NCBI GenBank assembly: GCA_903913215.1
Contig: CAIWKE010000008.1
Span: forward strand, 62,001-126,000
From: an uncultured Holophagaceae bacterium
GTDB lineage: Bacteria > Acidobacteriota > Holophagae > Holophagales > Holophagaceae
DNA: 64,000 nt
Direction of reading: 5' to 3'
Positions within the stretch are counted from its first letter, which is position 1, and each line of letters opens with the position of its first letter. A program made the position numbers and the translations under genes. A model generated the notes under the pieces. It was not told the DNA's origin. It saw nothing but the letters and a program-made list of their open reading frames with translations, and searched no databases. Below, one piece after another: positions 10,407-41,138 of the stretch.

Positions 10407-10909
10407 ACGCCCCCCGGTGTGTTCTGGATCAGGTCCACGCGGCTGGTCGGGGCCAACCGCTTTTTGTGGGGTCTAGTGTTGGGCTCAACGGCAGTCAGGC
10501 TGGAAGGGGGCGGGAGAGAAGATGTGGGATCTTCAGGCCAGACTGCCTCGACACTCCCGCCCATGCCCACGGTCAGGGAGTAGAGGTGCCGAAGATCCTC
10601 CAGGCTCCAGGCGTGGCACTGAAGCATCGTCTGATCCTGGCGGGTGAATTGATCCCAGAGGTCTAGGCCCTCCCGGTAGCGGGCTAGGCCCTTCAGGTCC
10701 ACCTGGGGGTCAAGACGGAAGATGGTCGTCCGTTGCTCTGCCGTGAAGCCCAGCAGGGCGATCAGCTCTGGTTTCAGGTCACGGACTGTCGCCAACTCGG
10801 GCAGGTCTAGGGCCTCCTGAGGTGCCCAGTAGATCCGTCCCCTGTCCGTCCTCCAACGGACATACTCGCGGGCCAGTAAGAAGGACTGGGCGTCCATGGC
10901 CCGGCTCAC
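10403..10909 (-). CDS. Unknown protein of the element B replication operon
   Basis: 168 aa starting at a GTG that overlaps the RepA-type stop codon by 4 nt (GTGA), with GAGGGG upstream; a later ATG at 10897 is an alternative. The N-terminus, FLLAREYVRWRTDRGRIYWA through LATVRDLKPELIALLGF, reads as a compact helical domain. The ELxPELIALLG segment resembles small TubC-like or primase-associated domains, but I cannot assign it. Pro-rich C-terminus. The position between the RepA-type ATPase and the Cys-rich gene points to a replication accessory role. Confidence 0.5.
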   Translation of the reverse strand: MSRAMDAQSFLLAREYVRWRTDRGRIYWAPQEALDLPELATVRDLKPELIALLGFTAEQRTTIFRLDPQVDLKGLARYREGLDLWDQFTRQDQTMLQCHAWSLEDLRHLYSLTVGMGGSVEAVWPEDPTSSLPPPSSLTAVEPNTRPHKKRLAPTSRVDLIQNTPGGV

Positions 10910-12606
10910 AGGCACCCCTCGGGCTCGGCCATGGCGAGGGGCACCGGAGTTCCGGTTATCCGTGTTCCGTGTTCCGGTCCCCTAAGGGAACGGAACATGG
11001 AACAGGGGGGAAGGAGTGGTGGTGTTCCGTTTGTTCCGCCGTGTTCCGGTTGGGGCGGAACACCTTGAAACGTATGGGAATTGCCCGATTTTATGGACTC
11101 TGGCTTGTTCCGGTCGGAACAATTGAAGCCCAGTGTCTGCGCCTTGGCCCACCCGGTGTCCGTCAGGCTGATCTGGTCCACCCAGCCATTTTTCCTGAGG
11201 GCGGAGATGGCTTTGTCCCAGAGCCGAGATGGGGTCTTTCCATCCGGGAAGATGACGCGGGCCTCTTTCTCTTTGTCAAGCTTGGCAAGGCTCCCGCCAG
11301 CTTCCGCGACGGCTAGAAGCACCTTGTCCTCGCGGTTGAACTTGAGCATGGCTGATACACCCTGAATGGTAGCGATGGCCCGCTCGGAGTCGGGGTGGAG
11401 GCTTAGGAACCCGGCCCCAGGTTCACCTTCCTGTCGGCGCTCCAGCAAGATCGTCTCCCCCTTCTCGGTAGCGTTGGTCTTGGACAAGTGGAGGGCGACA
11501 TAGGCCCCACGAAGTGCCCGGTCTGCCTCCAGGCCAGCCGTCTGCGCCTCAGAGGGAGACAAGGCCGCCATCTGGAGAACGAACCGGGCGGCCCCCTCGA
11601 TGGCACTGGAACCTCGCAGCGCTTCAGGGTGGAGTCTCTGGAACAGTTTTCGATCACTGTTGGAGTCGTTGCCCTTGGTCAGGTGGTGAATAGCCAGCGG
11701 TGCCGCCCCGGTCTGCTGAGCAAGAGCAGACCACGCCTCGACAAAACCTCGGGTATCCCGGGCGGCGTTCTCATCGCCCAGGTTCAACCTGGCCAGGGTG
11801 TCCAGCACAATCAACCCGCATCCACCAGGAATCGCGTTGGCTATGGCAGCTAAGGCCTGCCACTGATCTTGGAGACTGAACACTTCGCCAGTGGCCCGGT
11901 CTGGGAAGACTGGGACCATCCGGCCCTTCAGGGCCTCCAGGTGGGCCGGGGTCCAGCGGGGGTCCTCGGCAAGCAGTTCGATGCCACGGTTCAACCTTCG
12001 GTGAAACTCCTCTTGATCATCCTCAAGGGTGACGAACAACACACCAGAAGACTGTCCCGGGGAGACCTGGAGGCCCAGCACCCCCAGCCCCGAGGCTAGG
12101 CCAAGGCCGATGGAGAGGGCCGTCATGCTCTTTCCGCAACCAGCCCGGCCAGCTAAGATCCCGGGAACACCGGCAGGGATGAGCCCCTCCACAAGCCAGC
12201 GGACGGGAGGTGGTGGCTCTGTCAGCATCCTGGCAACATCGCCAACTAGCCAGGGGCCTTGATCCCTGGCGGTCGGCGAGGAGGCGAGCGGAAGTTCAAC
12301 TCTTGTTGGCTTCAATGGCAGAGTGGGGTGGTCCGCTTGGTGATTCCTTTTGGCCCCTGCCACAACCATGGGGGTCACGGGGTCTTCGAGTTGCCAGAAT
12401 GGGCCAGAGTCATGTGATTTCCAAAGGGTAGCGTCCTTAACCACGCTGCCACGCCCGGTAACTTCAAATGTCAATTCCCGATGAGTGGCATTGCCAGACT
12501 CATCGTGGCAAACCCTTGCCTTTGATGGCTTGCCGAGGCCCGGCCATGCCTTTGGAAGTTCGGGACAGTTTTCAGGAAGTGGCATCACTAAAAATGGTTC
12601 ACCCAT
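10906..12606 (-). CDS. RepA-type AAA ATPase (replicative helicase-like)
   Basis: 566 aa from the ATG at 12606, which overlaps the upstream stop (ATGGGTGA) and has GGGGG before it; an upstream start at 12636 is less likely. The Walker A motif is GILAGRAGCGKSMTALSIGL and the Walker B is GLIVLDTLARLN, in a RecA-like AAA_25 domain (about 145-360). RGSSAIEGAARFVLQM is the conserved block found in RepA-like hexameric helicases of plasmids and prophages. The C-terminal 150 residues include a winged-helix-like segment (KTPSRLWDKAISALRKNGWV). It probably unwinds the element DNA during autonomous replication. Confidence 0.8.
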   Translation of the reverse strand: MGEPFLVMPLPENCPELPKAWPGLGKPSKARVCHDESGNATHRELTFEVTGRGSVVKDATLWKSHDSGPFWQLEDPVTPMVVAGAKRNHQADHPTLPLKPTRVELPLASSPTARDQGPWLVGDVARMLTEPPPPVRWLVEGLIPAGVPGILAGRAGCGKSMTALSIGLGLASGLGVLGLQVSPGQSSGVLFVTLEDDQEEFHRRLNRGIELLAEDPRWTPAHLEALKGRMVPVFPDRATGEVFSLQDQWQALAAIANAIPGGCGLIVLDTLARLNLGDENAARDTRGFVEAWSALAQQTGAAPLAIHHLTKGNDSNSDRKLFQRLHPEALRGSSAIEGAARFVLQMAALSPSEAQTAGLEADRALRGAYVALHLSKTNATEKGETILLERRQEGEPGAGFLSLHPDSERAIATIQGVSAMLKFNREDKVLLAVAEAGGSLAKLDKEKEARVIFPDGKTPSRLWDKAISALRKNGWVDQISLTDTGWAKAQTLGFNCSDRNKPESIKSGNSHTFQGVPPQPEHGGTNGTPPLLPPCSMFRSLRGPEHGTRITGTPVPLAMAEPEGCL

Positions 12607-12964
12607 GGCTGCCCCCGAGATAGCGGTTAAGCGCACGCTCCAGTGCCCGCTTAGCCCTTGCGAATTTATTGATTCCGCGAAGGTAGGCGTAGAGAGAAAT
12701 AGGGTCGAAACCGCAGTGGTGTTTCCGTTCTTCGGATGGGCCTTCGAATGCCTCGTCTTTCCATACCCAAGTGTCGATGTCGATGCTGAAGGAATCCACT
12801 GGGGCGCCCGGTATGGTCGGGTTCGTCATGATGTACTTCCTGCCAATAACCCGGCCTCCGGGAAAGAGCGTGTGTAGTAACTCAGCTCCGTCCTGGTCTA
12901 GCACCCTTCGGTTTAGGTCCTCCCACCCCAAAGGTGACCGCTCCGCGTTGAGGGTGCTGCCCAT
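12599..12964 (-). CDS. Small replication protein, primase-like
   Basis: 121 aa. ATG at 12964 shares one base with the preceding stop (TGATG) and has GAGG 7 nt upstream; a GTG three bases earlier is possible. Residues 85-110 (GFDPISLYAYLRGINKFARA) resemble segments of primase/helicase-associated proteins in P4-like elements. There is no Cys zinc finger. It sits between the AlpA-like gene and the RepA-type ATPase, both overlapping, so it is very likely part of the replication module. The assignment is positional rather than by a strong motif. Confidence 0.45.
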   Translation of the reverse strand: MGSTLNAERSPLGWEDLNRRVLDQDGAELLHTLFPGGRVIGRKYIMTNPTIPGAPVDSFSIDIDTWVWKDEAFEGPSEERKHHCGFDPISLYAYLRGINKFARAKRALERALNRYLGGSHG

Positions 12965-13170
12965 CACCGCGCCTCAAGCGACTTCAGCCAGGCCTCAACC
13001 TCGGCAGCAGGGATGAGGGTTCGGCGACCGCTCTTAACGGCGCGGAGTCGGCCAGTCTTCAACTCCTCAAAAACGCGGGTCCTGCCAAGCCCTGTGAGGG
13101 CAGTGAAATCTGCGATGGAGTAAGTCACGCGTGCTGTCGGGGCGATTGTGTGGACCACTTTGGGCTCCAT
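12964..13170 (-). CDS. AlpA/excisionase-type helix-turn-helix protein
   Basis: 68 aa. YSIADFTALTGLGRTRVFEE followed by LKTGRLRAVKSGRRTLIPAAEVEAWL is a textbook MerR-like winged HTH of the excisionase (HTH_17/AlpA) family. Such proteins direct excision or activate the integrase in P4-like islands. It begins the replication operon. The ATG at 13170 sits inside a 33-bp near-palindrome and has no ribosome site; a GTG at residue 5 has GGAG before it and might be the real start. Confidence 0.85.
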   Translation of the reverse strand: MEPKVVHTIAPTARVTYSIADFTALTGLGRTRVFEELKTGRLRAVKSGRRTLIPAAEVEAWLKSLEAR

Positions 13171-13200
13171 GAAGTGCGAGAACGCTCTCGCGGGTTCATG
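13168..13200. promoter_or_regulatory. Palindrome covering the AlpA-like start codon
   Basis: CATGAA-gt-GCGAGA-acgc-TCTCGC-ggg-TTCATG: two nested perfect arms of 6 bp each. In the minus-strand transcript the annotated AUG lies in the 3' arm of this hairpin. It could be an operator for an autoregulating HTH protein or an RNA structure hiding the start codon. Confidence 0.5.
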
Positions 13201-13445
13201 GACAACCTAGCCGATTTTCTGGGCGTCACAATATGGAATCAAATTTTATTTTGATTAGAGTTGTGCTTGGTTGTTCGCACCAGTTTTCAGATGTATTCCG
13301 ATGTTTTCGAATTCACCGAATTCATCTATTTACGACCTCGATTGCTTCCACCAGCAGTGGCAGGATTGCGCCTCAACCTTTAGGACTGTATTGCCATTCA
13401 CGCTAGCGCTCAATTCGTGGGGGGCGCCGTCGCCCGGATTCTGTC
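13201..13445. other. Intergenic region between integrase B and the replication operon
   Basis: 245 bp without a gene. The AT-rich part at 13230-13320 should contain the promoter of the AlpA-led operon; no consensus box is clear. The part near 13400-13445 is the downstream flank of the integrase. Confidence 0.35.
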
Positions 13446-14795
13446 CTAGCCCACATCCCCTCGGATCGGAATCACATTCGACTCTGGTTGTCCGCTTGGT
13501 CTGTTACAGAAAATCGCCCAAGACCCCATCAGGGCCTTCCTCTTAGCGAACTGCGTGCCGCGTGCATATGCGGCCTCAGCCTTGTCCTTCAGCTGGTGTG
13601 CGAGAGCGTTCTCGATGACTTCACGGGGAAAGCTAGAGCACTCCCCAGCCCAATCCCTGAAGGTGGATCGGAACCCATGGGGCACGACCCTGCGTCCGTC
13701 AGAATCGCACCAGCCCTCCCCACCGGCCTCCACCGACTTCTTGTGCAGGAGGATGACAGCCTTCAGCATCGCGCCATTGGACAAGCCCCTGCCCTTTTTC
13801 TGGCCCGGGAACAGAAACACCGACTTCTCCCGGCTGAACATGTCCTTGACGATCTCCAGAGCCCGAGGCGATAGGGGAATTGTGTGCTCCTTGGCCGCCT
13901 TCATCCGCTCCGCTGGAATGGTCCAGATGGCCTTATGAATATTGAATTCACTGCGCTCGGCAGCGACCACCTCCTCAGAACGGGCAGCCGTGAGGATGGT
14001 GAATTCCAAGGCCAGAGGTGCAATCCCAGCCTGCCCCCGCAGTGCCACCACGAAATCACCGACTCGCGCATAAGGGAGGGCGGGCTGGCTTTCAACCTTT
14101 GCCACCTTTGCCTTGGCCGCCAGCAACTTGTCTAGGTGGTTCGTCCACCTGGCGGGATTGTCGCCCGTGCGGTAGCCAGAAACCGTGGCCCACGCCAGCA
14201 CGGCTTCTATGCGCTGCCTGACCCTAGACGCCGTCTCGTTTTTGGTTGTCCAGATCGGGTCGAGAACCTTGCGGACCATTGGCAAATCAATCGCGGCCAC
14301 AGGCAAGGACCCTATGATCGGACTCACATATGTTGCGAGAGTGTTCTCCCACTGTTGGGCATGCTTCTCATTTTTCCACCCAGCTCTTTTATCCTTGATA
14401 TATGAAGCGGCGGCCTGGTCGAAGGTCTTGGCTTTGGCCGCTTCAATCTTCGCGGCGATGGACTTCTCAGCGCTGGCCGTTTTTGGGTCCAGGTTCTTGT
14501 CCAACATCTCGCGGAATTCCCCGGCCTTCTCCCTGGCCCGGGCAAGGCTTACATCCAACAGCGACCCGAGTCCCATCTCAACTGTCTTCCCAGTCAACCG
14601 ACTTCGATACCGGAAGCACCAGGACTTCGTGACGGTGTCGGAGAGCTTCGGCTTGCCCCCTATAGTCCTCGGCGAGGACAGGCGGGTGATCATCAGGTAG
14701 AGCCCCCCACCATCGATGAGATACCTGCGCCTCGCATTGTTGTCGAGACCAGAGGTGGCGACTTCCACGGCAGAAAGTTTGTTTCTCCTACCCAT
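13446..14795 (-). CDS. P4-type tyrosine integrase of element B
   Basis: 449 aa. The N-terminal DUF4102-type arm-binding domain (LSAVEVATSG, YLIDGGGLYLMIT, KSWCFRYR, EMGLGSLLDVSLARAREKA) is typical of P4-like integrases. The core-binding domain follows (about 120-215). Catalytic residues are in LTAARSEEVV (Arg), VPHGFRSTFRDW (HxxR) and DKAEAAYARG (Tyr). It lies 190 bp from the tRNA-Ser copy at 14987, the site it presumably uses. The N-terminus includes the first of three CTACCCAT repeats (read on plus strand) at its start codon. Confidence 0.92.
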   Translation of the reverse strand: MGRRNKLSAVEVATSGLDNNARRRYLIDGGGLYLMITRLSSPRTIGGKPKLSDTVTKSWCFRYRSRLTGKTVEMGLGSLLDVSLARAREKAGEFREMLDKNLDPKTASAEKSIAAKIEAAKAKTFDQAAASYIKDKRAGWKNEKHAQQWENTLATYVSPIIGSLPVAAIDLPMVRKVLDPIWTTKNETASRVRQRIEAVLAWATVSGYRTGDNPARWTNHLDKLLAAKAKVAKVESQPALPYARVGDFVVALRGQAGIAPLALEFTILTAARSEEVVAAERSEFNIHKAIWTIPAERMKAAKEHTIPLSPRALEIVKDMFSREKSVFLFPGQKKGRGLSNGAMLKAVILLHKKSVEAGGEGWCDSDGRRVVPHGFRSTFRDWAGECSSFPREVIENALAHQLKDKAEAAYARGTQFAKRKALMGSWAIFCNRPSGQPESNVIPIRGDVG

Positions 14796-15237: not shown

Positions 15238-16497
15238 TCAGGCGTCCAGCTTCCGGGGAAATGCTGGGTGGTGCTCTCGGATGCAGTCGGGGCAGATGCC
15301 ATGGCTGAAGCGGGCATCGGAGTTGTCGGAGATGTACTTCTCCATCTGCTCCCAGGATTCCTGTTTGTTGTTGATCTTCTTGCAGTGCATGCAGATGGAG
15401 ATGATGCCCTCCAGGCGCTTTGTGCGCGCCAGGGTGGCCTCCAATTCCTCTTTCTGTTGAGCCAACAAGGCCCGGGCCGCTTCCCGTTGGCCGGCCTCCA
15501 GAGCCCTGCGGTGCCATCCGCGTTGGATCGCGATGGCGGCGATGATGGTCATGCCCAGAAAGGTCAGCACGAAGGCCGTCAGTTTCCAGGCTTCGAGGCG
15601 CCACTCCGAGAGGTAATCCCCGGTCGCGAGCCCCACGGTGATGAACAGCGGGCGAGGCAGGCCGAGCCGGCGCACCGAGATGGTCCGCTCCAGGCCATCG
15701 AGGGTGCTGAAGGTGGTGTAGGTGTGGGTGGCCAGGCCCCCCTCAAGGACCTGGCTCAGGTGGCTGGATGAGACTTTGCGCCCCACCCACGGGCCTGCGT
15801 CAGTGCCTGCAGGGTAGCGAGCGATCAGGGTCGCATCCGAGTCGACCAGGGCCATGGTGCCTCGCTGCCCAATGTCAAAGCTCGCGAAGCCCCTGGTGAG
15901 GTGCTCGATGGTGACGCCGGTGTAGACCAGTCCGGCGAAGCCTCCGCCCGGTCGGTTGATCCGGCGAGCCAAGACCACCATCCATTGCCCGGAGATCCCC
16001 CCGACCAGGGGCCTGGAAAGCACCAGTCCCGCGCCGGGGTCGCCCTGCAATTGGTGGAAGTAGTCCCGGTGGGCCAGGCTCGTGGTGGTGGCTGCCAGGG
16101 CCTGGGGGCCGTAGATGGCATTCCCACTGGCGTCCGTGGCGCGGAAGACCGCCAGCTCCGGCAAGCGGGCGTGCTCCCGGACGATGAAGCGGCTGAGGGC
16201 CGCCTGTTGGATCCCACCCGCAGCCAGTTCCCGCTCGGCCTCGTCCACCACGGCCAGCATGGCGATATCAACCTTGGCCACGATGCCAGTGATGTTCTCA
16301 TCCAGGATCTTCGCGAGGTTCTGCGAGGAATTGGTCGCCTGGTCGACCACGTGGATGCGGCTCCGGTGCAGGGAATACCAACAGATTGCCGCCACCAGGA
16401 CATTGAGGAGGACAACTCCCGCCACGAGCCGGGTTCGGAAGGCGGTGGCAGGGCTCGGTTGGGGGCTTTTCGATGGCTGGGCGTTCTGCGCGGGCAT
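15238..16497 (-). CDS. Cache-type membrane sensor with C-terminal Cys domain
   Basis: 419 aa from the ATG at 16497 (the frame stays open to 16647, without a better ribosome site). TM1 is LVAGVVLLNVLVAAICW, followed by an extracytoplasmic dCache-like region of about 240 aa, then TM2 LTAFVLTFLGMTIIAAIAI. A short coiled coil precedes the C-terminal block GIISICMHCKKINNKQESWE ... FSHGICPDC. That block, with C-x2-C and C-P-x-C, is also in the response regulator at 40500 and probably binds a metal. It has no kinase, GGDEF or MCP domain, so the Cys block is probably the output. It is downstream of the MCP gene. Confidence 0.75.
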   Translation of the reverse strand: MPAQNAQPSKSPQPSPATAFRTRLVAGVVLLNVLVAAICWYSLHRSRIHVVDQATNSSQNLAKILDENITGIVAKVDIAMLAVVDEAERELAAGGIQQAALSRFIVREHARLPELAVFRATDASGNAIYGPQALAATTTSLAHRDYFHQLQGDPGAGLVLSRPLVGGISGQWMVVLARRINRPGGGFAGLVYTGVTIEHLTRGFASFDIGQRGTMALVDSDATLIARYPAGTDAGPWVGRKVSSSHLSQVLEGGLATHTYTTFSTLDGLERTISVRRLGLPRPLFITVGLATGDYLSEWRLEAWKLTAFVLTFLGMTIIAAIAIQRGWHRRALEAGQREAARALLAQQKEELEATLARTKRLEGIISICMHCKKINNKQESWEQMEKYISDNSDARFSHGICPDCIREHHPAFPRKLDA

Positions 16498-16700
16498 CCG
16501 GGGCTCATGGATTGGGGGTCGTGGCGTCGGGGCAAGCCCTGCTTCCACAGCGATCTTTCGGGTATCGGTTCGTTGGGCTTTATTTAGCGCAGGCCTGGAG
16601 GAAGGATTCAAACCTTTGAGGCCTGGCGCGGACCTAGGAAGGCGCACCGGCGCGGCTGCGCTGAACGCAGCGGAACAGACCTTCTTATCCTGGCGTTTCC

Positions 16701-36016: not shown

Positions 36017-36122
36017 TCAAGCCATACCACTGCCCCCTTCCAGGCAGCGGCAACGGCTGCCTGACCAGATGATCGGACCGATAAGCCTACATGGGCCTTC
36101 ATCGGAGCACAGGGGGAGGGTG

Positions 36123-39100
36123 ATGAAAGGCGACAAGGCAGCATCCCCCAGGTCCTGGTTGCCCTGGGTGGGCTTGGCCCTTTCCATCACCATGGCCCTG
36201 AGCACCTGGGTACTCGTGTGGCGGGCGGAATCGAACCGCATCCACGACCGCTTCCTCGTGGAGACGGAACTGCTGCGGGAGCGCATCGCCAACCGCATGG
36301 CCACTCATGAGCAGATGCTGCGTGGCGCCGCAGAATTTGCGTCCGAGCGCCCCAGCATCCCCACCCGCCAGGAGTGGCATCAGTACGTGGCGGCCCTGGA
36401 GCTGAACCGCCTCAATCCAGGCGTCCAGGGCATCGCCTTCGTGGAGTGGATCCCTGAGGGAGCCCTGGATGCCCACGTGCGTCGCCTCCGCGCCGAGGGC
36501 TTCCCCGACTACCAGGTCCAGCCCGGCGGCCCCCTGCCCCGGGTCGGCGGCGTCAGCTCGATCATCTACCTGGAGCCCATGGATGCCCGGAACCGGCGGG
36601 CCTTCTCCCGGGACATGCTCGCCGATGCCACCCGCAGGGTGGCCATGCTCCGCGCCCGGGACACAGGCCAAGTGGCCATGACGGGGCGGCTCACGCTCTA
36701 CCAGGAGGACGGCTCCGCAGTCCAGGCAGGGACGCTCCTGTTGGCACCGGTCTACCGTCGGGGCCTGCCCCTGGACACAGTCCCTCAGCGGCAGGCGGCC
36801 CTGCTGGGCTGGACGGCCAGCGTCTTCCGGATGAAGAACCTGCTGGAAGGCATCCTGGGGAATTCCGCGCTTGGTGTGCAGTTGGAGTTGTTCGACGGGG
36901 CCTCCGAGGACGAACGCGACCTCCTCTATGCCCGGAGCCCCAGCAAATCCGAGCTCCCCAGCGGGGATCGGCTCCTGGAACAATTCCAGGTCGCGGACCG
37001 GACCTGGACCCTCCGCAGTTCACCTGGCGCGGCCTTCAGCGCCCCCTTGGGCGGCGGGGGCCACGTGCTGGTGCTTGGCGTGGGCCTGCTCTCCAGCATC
37101 GTGATCTTCTGGCTGCTCCGGTCTCTGGCCCTGGCCGAGCAGCTCGCCCTGGGGGTGGCCGACGAGCGCCTGGAGAAGCTCCAGCTGCTGCTGGATGCCA
37201 AGGAGGAGACCGAGCAGGCGCAGCAGGCGGTGGAGCAGCAGTTGGCCCATGCCCTCGCCGCCACGGGCGAAGGCATCTGGGACTGGGACGTCACCACTGG
37301 GCGCGTGAAGCACAATGCCCGCTGGTGCCAGCTCCTGGGGTTGGACGAGAACTTCATCGAGCATCCTGTGGAGATATTTGTCTCTCTGCTGCTAGAGGAG
37401 GACCGGGCCGAGGCAATGGGCTGCGTGCAGGCCTGCCTGGAGGACCGCGCGCCTTACCTCCACCGGCACCGGATGCACCACGCCAATGGCGGCATCATCT
37501 GGATCCTGGATCGAGGCCGCGTGGTGACCCGGGACGCGAGTGGCCGACCTCTGCGCATGGTGGGCAGCACCGCGGACATCACTCAGCTGGTGGAGGCGGA
37601 GGCGGTCCAGCGGGCTGCGGAGGCCCAGCTGCGCATCGCCCTGGAGGAGTCCGAGCGCCTCAACCAGCGCCTGGTGGAGGAGACCGAACGCGCCAATCAG
37701 ATGGCCCTGCAGGCCAAGGCGGCCAGCGTCACCAAATCGGAGTTCCTGGCCAACATGAGTCACGAGATCCGGACCCCCATGAACGGGGTCATCGGCATGG
37801 TCGGGCTGCTCCTCCAGACGTCCCTGGATGAGCGTCAGCGCCACTACGCCGAGTCGGCCAGGCTCAGCGGGGATTACCTGCTGGCCCTCATCAATGACAT
37901 CCTCGACCTCTCCAAGGTGGAAGCCGGCAAGCTGGAGCTGGTGGAGGAAGCCTTCGACCTCGGCCTTCTCCTGAAGGAGCTGGCCCTGAGCGTAGAACCT
38001 CAGGCCCGGGTGAAAGGTCTGACCTTCACCGAGGCCATGGCCGCGGACACGCCCCGCCATTTCCATGGTGACGCCGGGCGCCTGCGGCAGGTGCTGCTCA
38101 ACCTGCTCGGCAACGCCCTGAAGTTCACCCCCAGGGGCCGCGTGGCGTTGCAGACGGAGCCACTGTGGGTCTCTGAACAAGAGGTCCTGCTCAAATTCAC
38201 CGTGCAGGACACGGGCATCGGCATCCCCGCCGCCAAGCTGGGCTCCCTATTCCAGAGCTTCACCCAGGTGGATGCCTCCACCACCCGCAAGTTCGGCGGC
38301 ACTGGCCTGGGCCTCGCCATCTGCAAGCAGCTGGCGGCCCTGCTCGGGGGCGAGATCGGCGTCCGCAGTGACGAGGAGCGGGGCTCGGAGTTTTGGTTCA
38401 CGGCCCGCTTCAAGCGCTCGGACGGCCTCCTGCCGGCCCGGCGGCCCATGGTCTCCCAGCACTTCGGAGACCGCCGCCTGGGTCCGGCCCGCCTCCTGCT
38501 CGTGGAAGACAACCAAGTGAACCAGGACCTGGCCCTGGCCATTTTGCGCCAGTGGGGACTCACGGTGGCGGTGGCGGCGGACGGCATGGAGGCCCTCCAG
38601 GCCCTGCGCGAGACTCCCTTCGACCTCGTCCTGATGGATATCCAGATGCCCAAGCTGGATGGGCTCGAGGCCACCGTCCTGCTGCGCAATCCGCTGTCTG
38701 GTGTGCTGGATTCCCGGATCCCGGTCGTGGCCATGACTGCCCACGCCATGCCCGGGGATCGCCAACTCTGCCTGGATGCGGGCATGGACGAGTACCTCAC
38801 CAAGCCCCTGGAGCCCGGAATCCTACTGGCGGTCCTGGAACGTTTCCTGGGCCAGTCCACGCAGGCACCGCCTGCGCCCGACCCCAGTCGGCCGACCTAC
38901 GATAGTCCCGCAGAACGGGCTGCGGTCTTCGATCAGGCGGGCCTCCTGCGGCGCCTCATGGGCAACCGCAAGGCCGCCGCGAGCATCGTGCAGGGCTACG
39001 TCGAGGACTGCCCGCAGCACCTCGCCCGCTACCAGGCGGCCCTGGATTCCGGCGATCTGTCCACAGCCGCGACGGAACTCCACCTCATCAAGGGTTCCTC

Positions 39101-39251
39101 GGCCACGGTGGGTGCCGAAGGCGTCCGGCGCGCAGCCCAAGCCCTGGAGCAGAATTTCAAGACCGGTGACCTTGAAGGCGTGCGGGCCAAGGCCCGGACT
39201 CTGATCGCGGCCTTTGCACATTTCCAGGAGGTGGCCCTTGACGGTGCCTGA
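36123..39251 (+). CDS. CHASE-domain hybrid histidine kinase with HPt
   Basis: 1042 aa; ATG at 36123 with GGGAGG upstream. TM1 about 15-31, a CHASE domain (about 70-250; [35 protein letters not shown]), TM2 with [16 protein letters not shown] (about 322-340), a PAS domain (about 390-500), HisKA with [15 protein letters not shown], HATPase with [16 protein letters not shown] and GTGLGLAI, a REC domain with VEDNQVNQ and LMDIQMPK, and a C-terminal HPt domain with [16 protein letters not shown]. It is thus a complete phosphorelay in one chain and passes phosphate to the regulators encoded next. Confidence 0.95.
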
Positions 39252-40503
39252 AGACGATCCCATCCGGGCCCTCCGGGTCATGGTGGTGGATGATGACGCG
39301 GTCTTCCGCCGCTACCTGGAAGCCCAGCTGACCATGCTGGGCTGCCAGTTCCTGCCCGTGGAGAGCGGAGACCTGGCCTGGGCCCAGATGCAGACCGCTG
39401 CACCGGACCTGGTCCTTACGGATGTCTTCATGCCCGGCATGAGCGGCCTGGACCTCTGCCGCCGCATCAAATCCTCCTCCACCCTCCGGAACATCCCCGT
39501 GATCCTGCTGACCATGTTGGGCACCAAGGTGAAGGACGAGGGCTATCAGGCCGGCGCGGACGACTTCTTGAACAAGCCCCCCCATCTGTTGGAACTCCGC
39601 ACTCGCATCCGCAACCTCCTGCTCCTGAGGAGTCTGCAGACCCAACCACAGGCCGAGGCGGAACCTGCCTTCGACGTTCCCCTGGAGGATGGTTCTCCGG
39701 CGCGGATCCTGCTCCTGGAATCTCACGGCATCCTGCGCGAGCACGCCCGGGCCATCCTGGCCGAGGAAGGCTGGGAGGTGGAGGGCCTGGATACCCAGGA
39801 CCGCCTGCTGGAGCACCTGCGCAGCCAGCGCCCGGACCTCCTGATCATCGACCAGGACCTGCTGGAGGGCCCCGGCAGCGCCCTGGTCTCCCGCCTCCGG
39901 AGCCAGGCCCTAACTCAGGATCTGAGCATCCTCCTGATGTGCGAAGCCGGCGCCCTGGAACTGCAGACCGGCGGCTGGCAGAGCGAGGCTGACGAGCACC
40001 TAGTCAAACCCTTTGAGACCTCGGAACTGAAGGTCCGGGTGCGCTCCCTGCTGAAGCAGGCCGAGCTGCGGCGCCGAAAGGAGGCCCAGGCCGGGAATAC
40101 AGAGCCCGGTTCCCTCCGGGATCCCCAGAGTGGGGCCTTTTCGCAGGCCTACCTCTTCGCGTGCCTGGAGCACCTCAACGCCTTCGCGGCCCTCCAGGGC
40201 ACCCCCATGGGCCTGCTGGGCGTCCGGACGGCCGCCCAACTCGGCGGGACCAGCCACCAGGTCGCCACCCTGCTTGCGAGCCAGCTGAAACCCCATGAGA
40301 TCCTCTGCAGTGTGGGCCCGGGGATCTTCGTGGCCATCCTGCCCGGGGCGGATGACGCCGACCTCAGCACCCGGGTGAGCGCCCTCAGCCCCAGTTTGCC
40401 AGGCAGTCATTTCGTCACGGTTTCTGGCACTGGGCTCACTGCCAAGGCGCTCCTGAAGCGCGCCTGGGATCAATTGAAGGACCGGGGAAGGACAGGCCCA
40501 TGA
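39238..40503 (+). CDS. Double-REC regulator with decayed GGDEF domain
   Basis: 421 aa from a TTG at 39238 (AGGAGG 6 nt upstream), overlapping the kinase by 14 nt. REC1 (about 10-130): [31 protein letters not shown]2 (about 155-275) is divergent: [29 protein letters not shown], with DQD in place of the standard acceptor region. The C-terminus has the layout of a GGDEF domain ([20 protein letters not shown] ... [10 protein letters not shown]) but the GGDEF box is VGPGIF, so it is inactive. It resembles PleD architecture, reduced to a receiver platform. Confidence 0.8.
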
Positions 40504-41138
40504 AGATCCTCATTGCCGATGATGACCGGGCCTCCCGGAAAGCCCTGGGTGCCATCCTAGAGATGTTCGGCTTCGAGGTGGTGGAGGCCGAGGATGGCAG
40601 CCGGGCCCTGGCCTTGCTCCTGGAAGCGGGTGCGCCGCAGATGGCCATCCTGGACTGGATGATGCCAGGCCTCAGCGGGCCGGAGGTCTGCGAACAGATT
40701 CGGGCGCTGCCCACGGAGCGCCCACCCTACCTGATCATGCTCACCATGCGGGACACCAAGGAAGATCTGGTGGCGGCCCTGGGCGCAGGAGCCGATGACT
40801 ACCTCGCCAAGCCCTGTGAGCCCACGGAACTCCAGGCCCGGGTCGGGGTGGGCCAGCGCCTGCTCAGCCTTCAAGGTTCCCTGGCGGACCACGTGGACCA
40901 GCTCCAGCCGGCCCTGGACCAGGTCAGAACCCTCCGGGGCATCCTGCCCATCTGCTCCTACTGCAAGAAGATCCGCAACGATCAGCGGTACTGGGAGCAG
41001 CTGGAGCACTACATCTCCGAAAACACCGGGGCCACCTTCTCTCACGGCATTTGCCCCGACTGCCGCGAGCGCCACGTGCTCCCGGAGCTGGAGGCCATGC
41101 GCAAATCCCGCAATGTGAGGATCGAGCCGCTCTCCTGA
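40500..41138 (+). CDS. Response regulator with C-terminal Cys-rich output domain
   Basis: 212 aa; ATG overlaps the stop of the previous gene (ATGA). The REC domain has IADDDRAS, AILDWMMPGLSGPE (phospho-Asp near 53) and LAKPCEPTE. After a linker helix comes ILPICSYCKKIRNDQRYWEQ and FSHGICPDC, the same block as in the Cache sensor at 15238. The block has two CxxC-like pairs and conserved Trp and His. It replaces a DNA-binding or enzymatic output, so it is probably a protein-protein or metal-responsive domain. It completes a three-gene phosphorelay operon. Confidence 0.85.
   Translation: MKILIADDDRASRKALGAILEMFGFEVVEAEDGSRALALLLEAGAPQMAILDWMMPGLSGPEVCEQIRALPTERPPYLIMLTMRDTKEDLVAALGAGADDYLAKPCEPTELQARVGVGQRLLSLQGSLADHVDQLQPALDQVRTLRGILPICSYCKKIRNDQRYWEQLEHYISENTGATFSHGICPDCRERHVLPELEAMRKSRNVRIEPLS

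Follow-up and report, generated by a model that had tools for sequence, protein, structure and literature searches.

Among described output domains, the archaeal HalOD2 and TackOD1 and the bacterial GGDEF domain come closest to the one reported here. HalOD2 stands at the C-terminus of response regulators, carries two CxxC motifs, is predicted to be a zinc finger and has no assigned function (PMC5847659). TackOD1 (Pfam PF18551; PMC5847659) is likewise rich in cysteine, attached to receiver (REC) domains and without an assigned function. In diguanylate cyclases such as DgcR and WspR, a terminal GGDEF domain follows REC or PAS domains on a coiled coil whose length is stepped by seven residues, and in the REC-GGDEF enzymes this discretised spacing is counted from the KP motif and the coiled coil shifts register upon activation (PMC8041772). 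Here, a domain of about 45 amino acids with a core of 37 and four cysteines is described from a window of 64 kb, by which the whole stretch of DNA analysed is meant, in the genome of an uncultured Holophagaceae bacterium. It is a genuine and widespread output domain without a name in the libraries searched.

Two proteins of the window, a membrane sensor with a Cache-like ectodomain and a response regulator, were proposed in the initial annotation to end in one shared Cys-rich domain. This was borne out, as the two copies were 63% identical over 48 amino acids (E 3e-18), far above chance. The ORF of the Cache sensor (15238-16647, minus strand) ends in ...RTKRLEGIISICMHCKKINNKQESWEQMEKYISDNSDARFSHGICPDCIREHHPAFPRKLDA, and near the C-terminus of the response regulator are found ...QVRTLRGILPICSYCKKIRNDQRYWEQLEHYISENTGATFSHGICPDCRERHVLPEL... 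and QVRTLRGILPICSYCKKIRNDQRYWEQLEHYISENTGATFSHGICPDC. Both copies read C-x2-C-KKI-x6-W-E-x4-Y-I. In the motif string first given, the spacing before YI is to be corrected from x2 to x4. The start of the Cache sensor was placed at the ATG at 16497, the frame being open upstream to a GTG at 16647. Neither protein had been thought to carry a further output, and Pfam agreed: only a dCache_1-like region was seen in the sensor (E 2.8e-9, under the gathering score) and only Response_reg in the regulator, whose REC domain has both the phospho-Asp 52 and Lys 104. The coordinates are collected in Table 1.

Table 1. Features of the window that bear on the four-Cys domain.
Feature	Position	Strand	Basis or remark
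Membrane sensor: TM1, Cache-like periplasmic domain, TM2, coiled coil, four-Cys domain	15241..16497	-	TM from sequence hydrophobicity
Four-Cys core C-x2-C-x29-C-x2-C of the Cache sensor, aa 419-455 of the 469-aa ORF	15283..15393	-	Family profile match
Predicted signalling coiled coil before the Cache sensor domain, approximate limits	15394..15500	-	Family heptad pattern; helix 2-25 of the regulator-copy model
Hybrid histidine kinase CHASE-PAS-HisKA-HATPase-REC-Hpt	36069..39251	+	Upstream of the response regulator; apparent common operon, gene overlap
REC-REC protein with apparently degenerate GGDEF-like tail	39214..40503	+	4-base overlap with the response regulator start
Response regulator: REC, coiled coil, four-Cys domain	40500..41138	+	Response_reg E 7.7e-27
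Coiled-coil linker from REC to the domain, response regulator	40845..40952	+	Model; heptad analysis
Response regulator, four-Cys core (aa 152-188)	40953..41063	+	First Cys 48 residues past the REC Lys, a step of the heptad ladder

Next to the Cache gene, a tyrosine-type phage integrase gene lies beside an AAA_25 (RepA-like) ORF at 10906-14795, possibly an integrated element; no tRNA gene was found in the 64-kb window. An MCP gene also adjoins the Cache gene, and this pairing was absent in both of the two relatives in which it was looked for.

The domain had been proposed as a novel output or docking module, and no known family was found for it in the library searches. Of 36 copies scanned against Pfam (2025 copy) and 84 against NCBIfam (release 20.0), none scored above a curated cut-off; the best Pfam match had E 4e-4, with matches scattered over families and no significant recurrence, and the best NCBIfam match had E 0.004. 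PHROGs and PADLOC gave no significant match for single copies or for alignments. With single copies and alignments, only weak, scattered zinc-finger-like matches were obtained from the four libraries, and membership of a known family was rejected. No solved structure was related by sequence, the best match (E 0.018) covering 25 residues without the second CxxC. The motif string SHGICP did not occur in the literature searched, in which the archaeal census was the only source found for a described zinc output domain, an earlier mention in response-regulator census reviews being possible.

A profile search of genomes for the block and its partner domains, suggested as a check in the initial annotation, revealed widespread relatives. 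When each species was represented by one genome, at least 254 were detected, and the record titles of the best 80 of these named Holophagaceae, Desulfobulbaceae, Desulfobacteraceae, Geomonas, Nitrospirae, Verrucomicrobia, Spirochaetes, Calditrichaeota, Cloacimonadota, Chlorobiaceae, Cyanobacteria, Myxococcota and others. The domain was present in 74 of 199 genomes of the host's own phylum, in 54 of 118 from the phylum of Desulfosarcina and Geomonas, in 29 of 120 from that of a Spirochaetes MAG and in 40 of 115 from that of a Verrucomicrobia MAG, the names other than the host's being record titles of the genomes at the centre of each search. Across these four phyla, 24-46% of the genomes contained relatives, with at most 22 per genome; Desulfosarcina widdelii had 22 copies and Desulfopila aestuarii 19. 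The host genome contained 11 copies by profile, of which 10 were intact and one had an in-frame stop. The plasmids searched gave one weak match and the phages none, and the domain is therefore not a feature of mobile elements.

Some single copies deserve mention. One copy in the host genome (L011, G000:C13:131034-131171) is degraded, scores weakly and has an in-frame TAG; it is a decaying paralogue. Three domain genes lie inside 10 kb at L043:1-9948, interspersed with genes for a CheB-CheR-PAS protein and a PAS histidine kinase, and at L118 two neighbouring genes each encode the domain, one of them with a tail of 62 amino acids behind it. A Calditrichaeota genome holds a standalone copy of 61 amino acids (L162:1492-1674) that has neither a sensor nor a long coiled coil.

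The four cysteines were kept in 264 of 265 unique proteins, the sole exception being a masked sequence, and in an alignment of 84 diverse copies they were the only invariant columns, with L, P, K, R, W, E, Y, H and P near-invariant. The conservation of the cysteines, on which the proposal of a shared domain depended, was thus confirmed. The spacing was C-x2-C-x29-C-x2-C in 251 of the 264 copies and 28 to 37 residues in the remainder. Besides the cysteines, the polar residues K, R, E and H were 94-99% conserved, and the His preceding the third Cys reached 99%. An AlphaFold model of the regulator copy as a monomer had a mean pLDDT of 91.8 with a deeper alignment and of 71 with a shallow one. In the model, a long helix is followed by the first CxxC in a loop (knuckle), a short hairpin, a helix (WxQxExYI) and the CPDC that opens the last helix. 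Because of this order of knuckle, beta hairpin and second CxxC at a helix start, together with the positions of the cysteines, the fold is predicted to be treble-clef-like with one four-Cys site, and not to hold the two separate CxxC pairs first envisaged. The domain probably binds zinc at this site. A fold search (Foldseek, VIA-align) gave no significant solved match, one chain reaching Z 3.2 with an rmsd of 10.9 over 72 aligned residues for what is a very small query domain.

Four-Cys fingers are frequently nucleic-acid binders, the authors of HalOD2 propose DNA or RNA binding for its CxxC pair (PMC5847659), a basic KKIR follows the first CxxC and the 61-aa standalone copy has a weak match to an HNH profile (E 0.009), all of which would suit transcription regulators, some of them membrane-anchored, that bind DNA or RNA through the domain. 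Against this stand the transmembrane segments predicted in 120 of 265 hosts and a model without an HTH-like pair of helices, and we regard nucleic-acid binding as decidedly unlikely. The near-invariant H, E, K, R and Y of the core could likewise serve catalysis or the binding of a ligand, which would make the domain a tiny enzyme or a ligand-binding terminus; this appears very improbable in a core of 37 amino acids that leaves little room, with four of its residues on the metal, and no enzyme family was related above cut-off.

The place of the domain in its hosts was nearly constant, 263 of 265 proteins ending within 39 residues past it and the other two within 64. At one of these two longer-tailed hosts (L287:1309-2844) the tail of 64 amino acids may form a small winged-helix-like segment. 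Searches by regular expressions for HisKA, HATPase, GGDEF and EAL motifs found none in the 265 hosts, many of those outside the window having been read to about 500 amino acids upstream of the domain, so that an N-terminal catalytic domain could escape in the longest. By class, 74 hosts carried a REC domain, 120 others were predicted membrane proteins and 71 were soluble without REC. The initial view of an output module of two-component signalling therefore stands as to output position and is too narrow as to hosts. The N-terminal partners seen by Pfam were REC, PAS, GAF, dCache, CHASE, the periplasmic binding domains SBP_bac_3, NMT1 and Phosphonate-bd, PocR and TPR, with REC in 32 of the 90 proteins of the partner scan. 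Among Cache ectodomains of the window's genus, 28-51% identical to that of the window, one set was joined to the four-Cys domain, six to HK-REC (L227-L232) and one to GGDEF (L233), and different outputs are thus exchanged behind one sensor type. Since the domain is terminal, is not accompanied by other output motifs and is exchanged with kinase and GGDEF ends, it fills the output slot of these proteins, a role that is well supported by the sequence comparisons. CxxC pairs are able to act as redox switches and REC-associated domains can be inputs (PMC5847659), and the domain might on these grounds be an input that senses metal or redox state and adjusts the protein from the C-terminal side. This is very unlikely, as the domain is always terminal with complete sensors at the other side, nothing would be left as output, and its exchange with kinase and GGDEF ends speaks for the output role.

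Upstream of the domain, linker lengths followed steps of seven, as expected for an output behind a signalling coiled coil. Counted from the REC Lys, the first Cys mostly followed at 34, 41, 48 or 55 residues (48 in the response regulator of the window), with 34 of 38 proteins non-redundant at 60% in one phase modulo seven; counted from the PAS DIT motif, it mostly followed at 14, 21, 28, 35 or 42, with 33 of 41 in one phase; these counts are not independent by descent, and 6 of 10 distinct REC linker lengths were in phase. The ladder was present behind two unrelated input types and agrees with the discretised spacing published for REC-GGDEF enzymes (PMC8041772), and the hydrophobic positions ahead of the domain had a period peak of 3.5. 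The phospho-Asp was present in 74 of 74 REC hosts and the Lys in 73.

A finger that always lies behind a coiled coil, ends the protein and has no partner gene alongside might be just the zinc-stabilised cap or dimerisation end of that coil, with the real output lying in whether the protein is dimerised or in a surface of REC or PAS. We consider this unlikely. The Cache and other membrane-anchored hosts have only coil and finger in the cytoplasm, and the 94-99% conservation of K, R, E and H exceeds the needs of a cap. The same applies to conservation relative to REC: in REC hosts the domain without its cysteines had a mean identity of 55% versus 36% for REC and was the better conserved of the two in 95% of pairs. 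Conservation above that of REC fits one constant partner or ligand, and docking on a shared partner is our best guess for the effect of the domain.

The hybrid kinase of the window is likely to be the phosphodonor of the response regulator. In the REC-REC protein between them, the C-terminus reads as a degenerate GGDEF domain, with GPGIF replacing GGDEF, and Pfam detects the receivers only. Same-strand kinase genes were found near hosts at 12 of 67 loci versus 18 of 412 control genes, and of the 53 co-directional genes lying upstream, 9 contained Hpt. The recurring neighbours were kinase, REC, Hpt and PAS genes, with S41 peptidases in 4 of 53. As no non-signalling neighbour recurred widely among the loci examined, the effector is probably encoded elsewhere.

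A working model can be depicted as follows: a stimulus would be received by the N-terminal part, Cache, PAS or binding-protein domains taking up a ligand and REC being phosphorylated; in the window, the probable kinase is the adjacent hybrid with its Hpt. The stimulus would alter a parallel signalling coiled coil, the change in the coil would turn or free the paired zinc fingers, and these would dock on a conserved partner in the cytoplasm whose gene lies elsewhere. We infer that the metal is zinc, that the proteins are dimers, the direction of the switch and that docking is its effect. As a whole, a zinc-binding, treble-clef-like output module at the C-terminus of dimeric sensors and receivers, driven by the coiled coil and docking in this manner, is a fairly probable reading. 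More speculatively, and with rather low probability, the several sensors and phospho-receivers of one cell, up to some twenty, may converge through the domain as a shared transmitter onto one hub protein, as chemoreceptors do on CheA, and would then make up a bacterial signalling system so far unrecognised.

Many sensors and response regulators are annotated without an output. For a large set of these, in Acidobacteriota, sulfate and iron reducers, Spirochaetota and Verrucomicrobiota, a shared output end that has no name yet would provide the explanation, and a single profile would allow hundreds of proteins to be re-annotated. The idea of an output domain was largely supported.

In comparison with known systems, the four-Cys domain shares with treble-clef fingers, of which the zinc-binding domain of ClpX is an example, a CxxC knuckle, a hairpin and a CPxC at a helix start, as far as the model goes. 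It differs from them in having one more helix (WxQxExYI) ahead of the second CxxC, and no sequence relation was found above cut-offs. TackOD1 is far larger, with about 200 amino acids and five CxxC plus one HxxC that together hold 11 conserved Cys, against about 45 amino acids and four Cys here. The GGDEF diguanylate cyclases have the terminal place, the stepped coiled coil and common sensor partners; the four-Cys domain, in contrast, has no GGDEF motif (0 of 265 hosts), no catalytic domain and an unrelated sequence. In HalOD2 the CxxC motifs are 20-25 residues apart, compared with 29 here, and its N-terminal half resembles HalX (PMC5847659), whereas a coiled coil stands in that place here; HalX was not among the 25 commonest Pfam matches of the hosts. 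HalOD2 is known from only a few halobacteria with no membrane sensors reported, while the four-Cys domain occurs in several phyla and in membrane sensors too. Judged against its published description, HalOD2 is thus resembled in idea, with a different spacing and setting.
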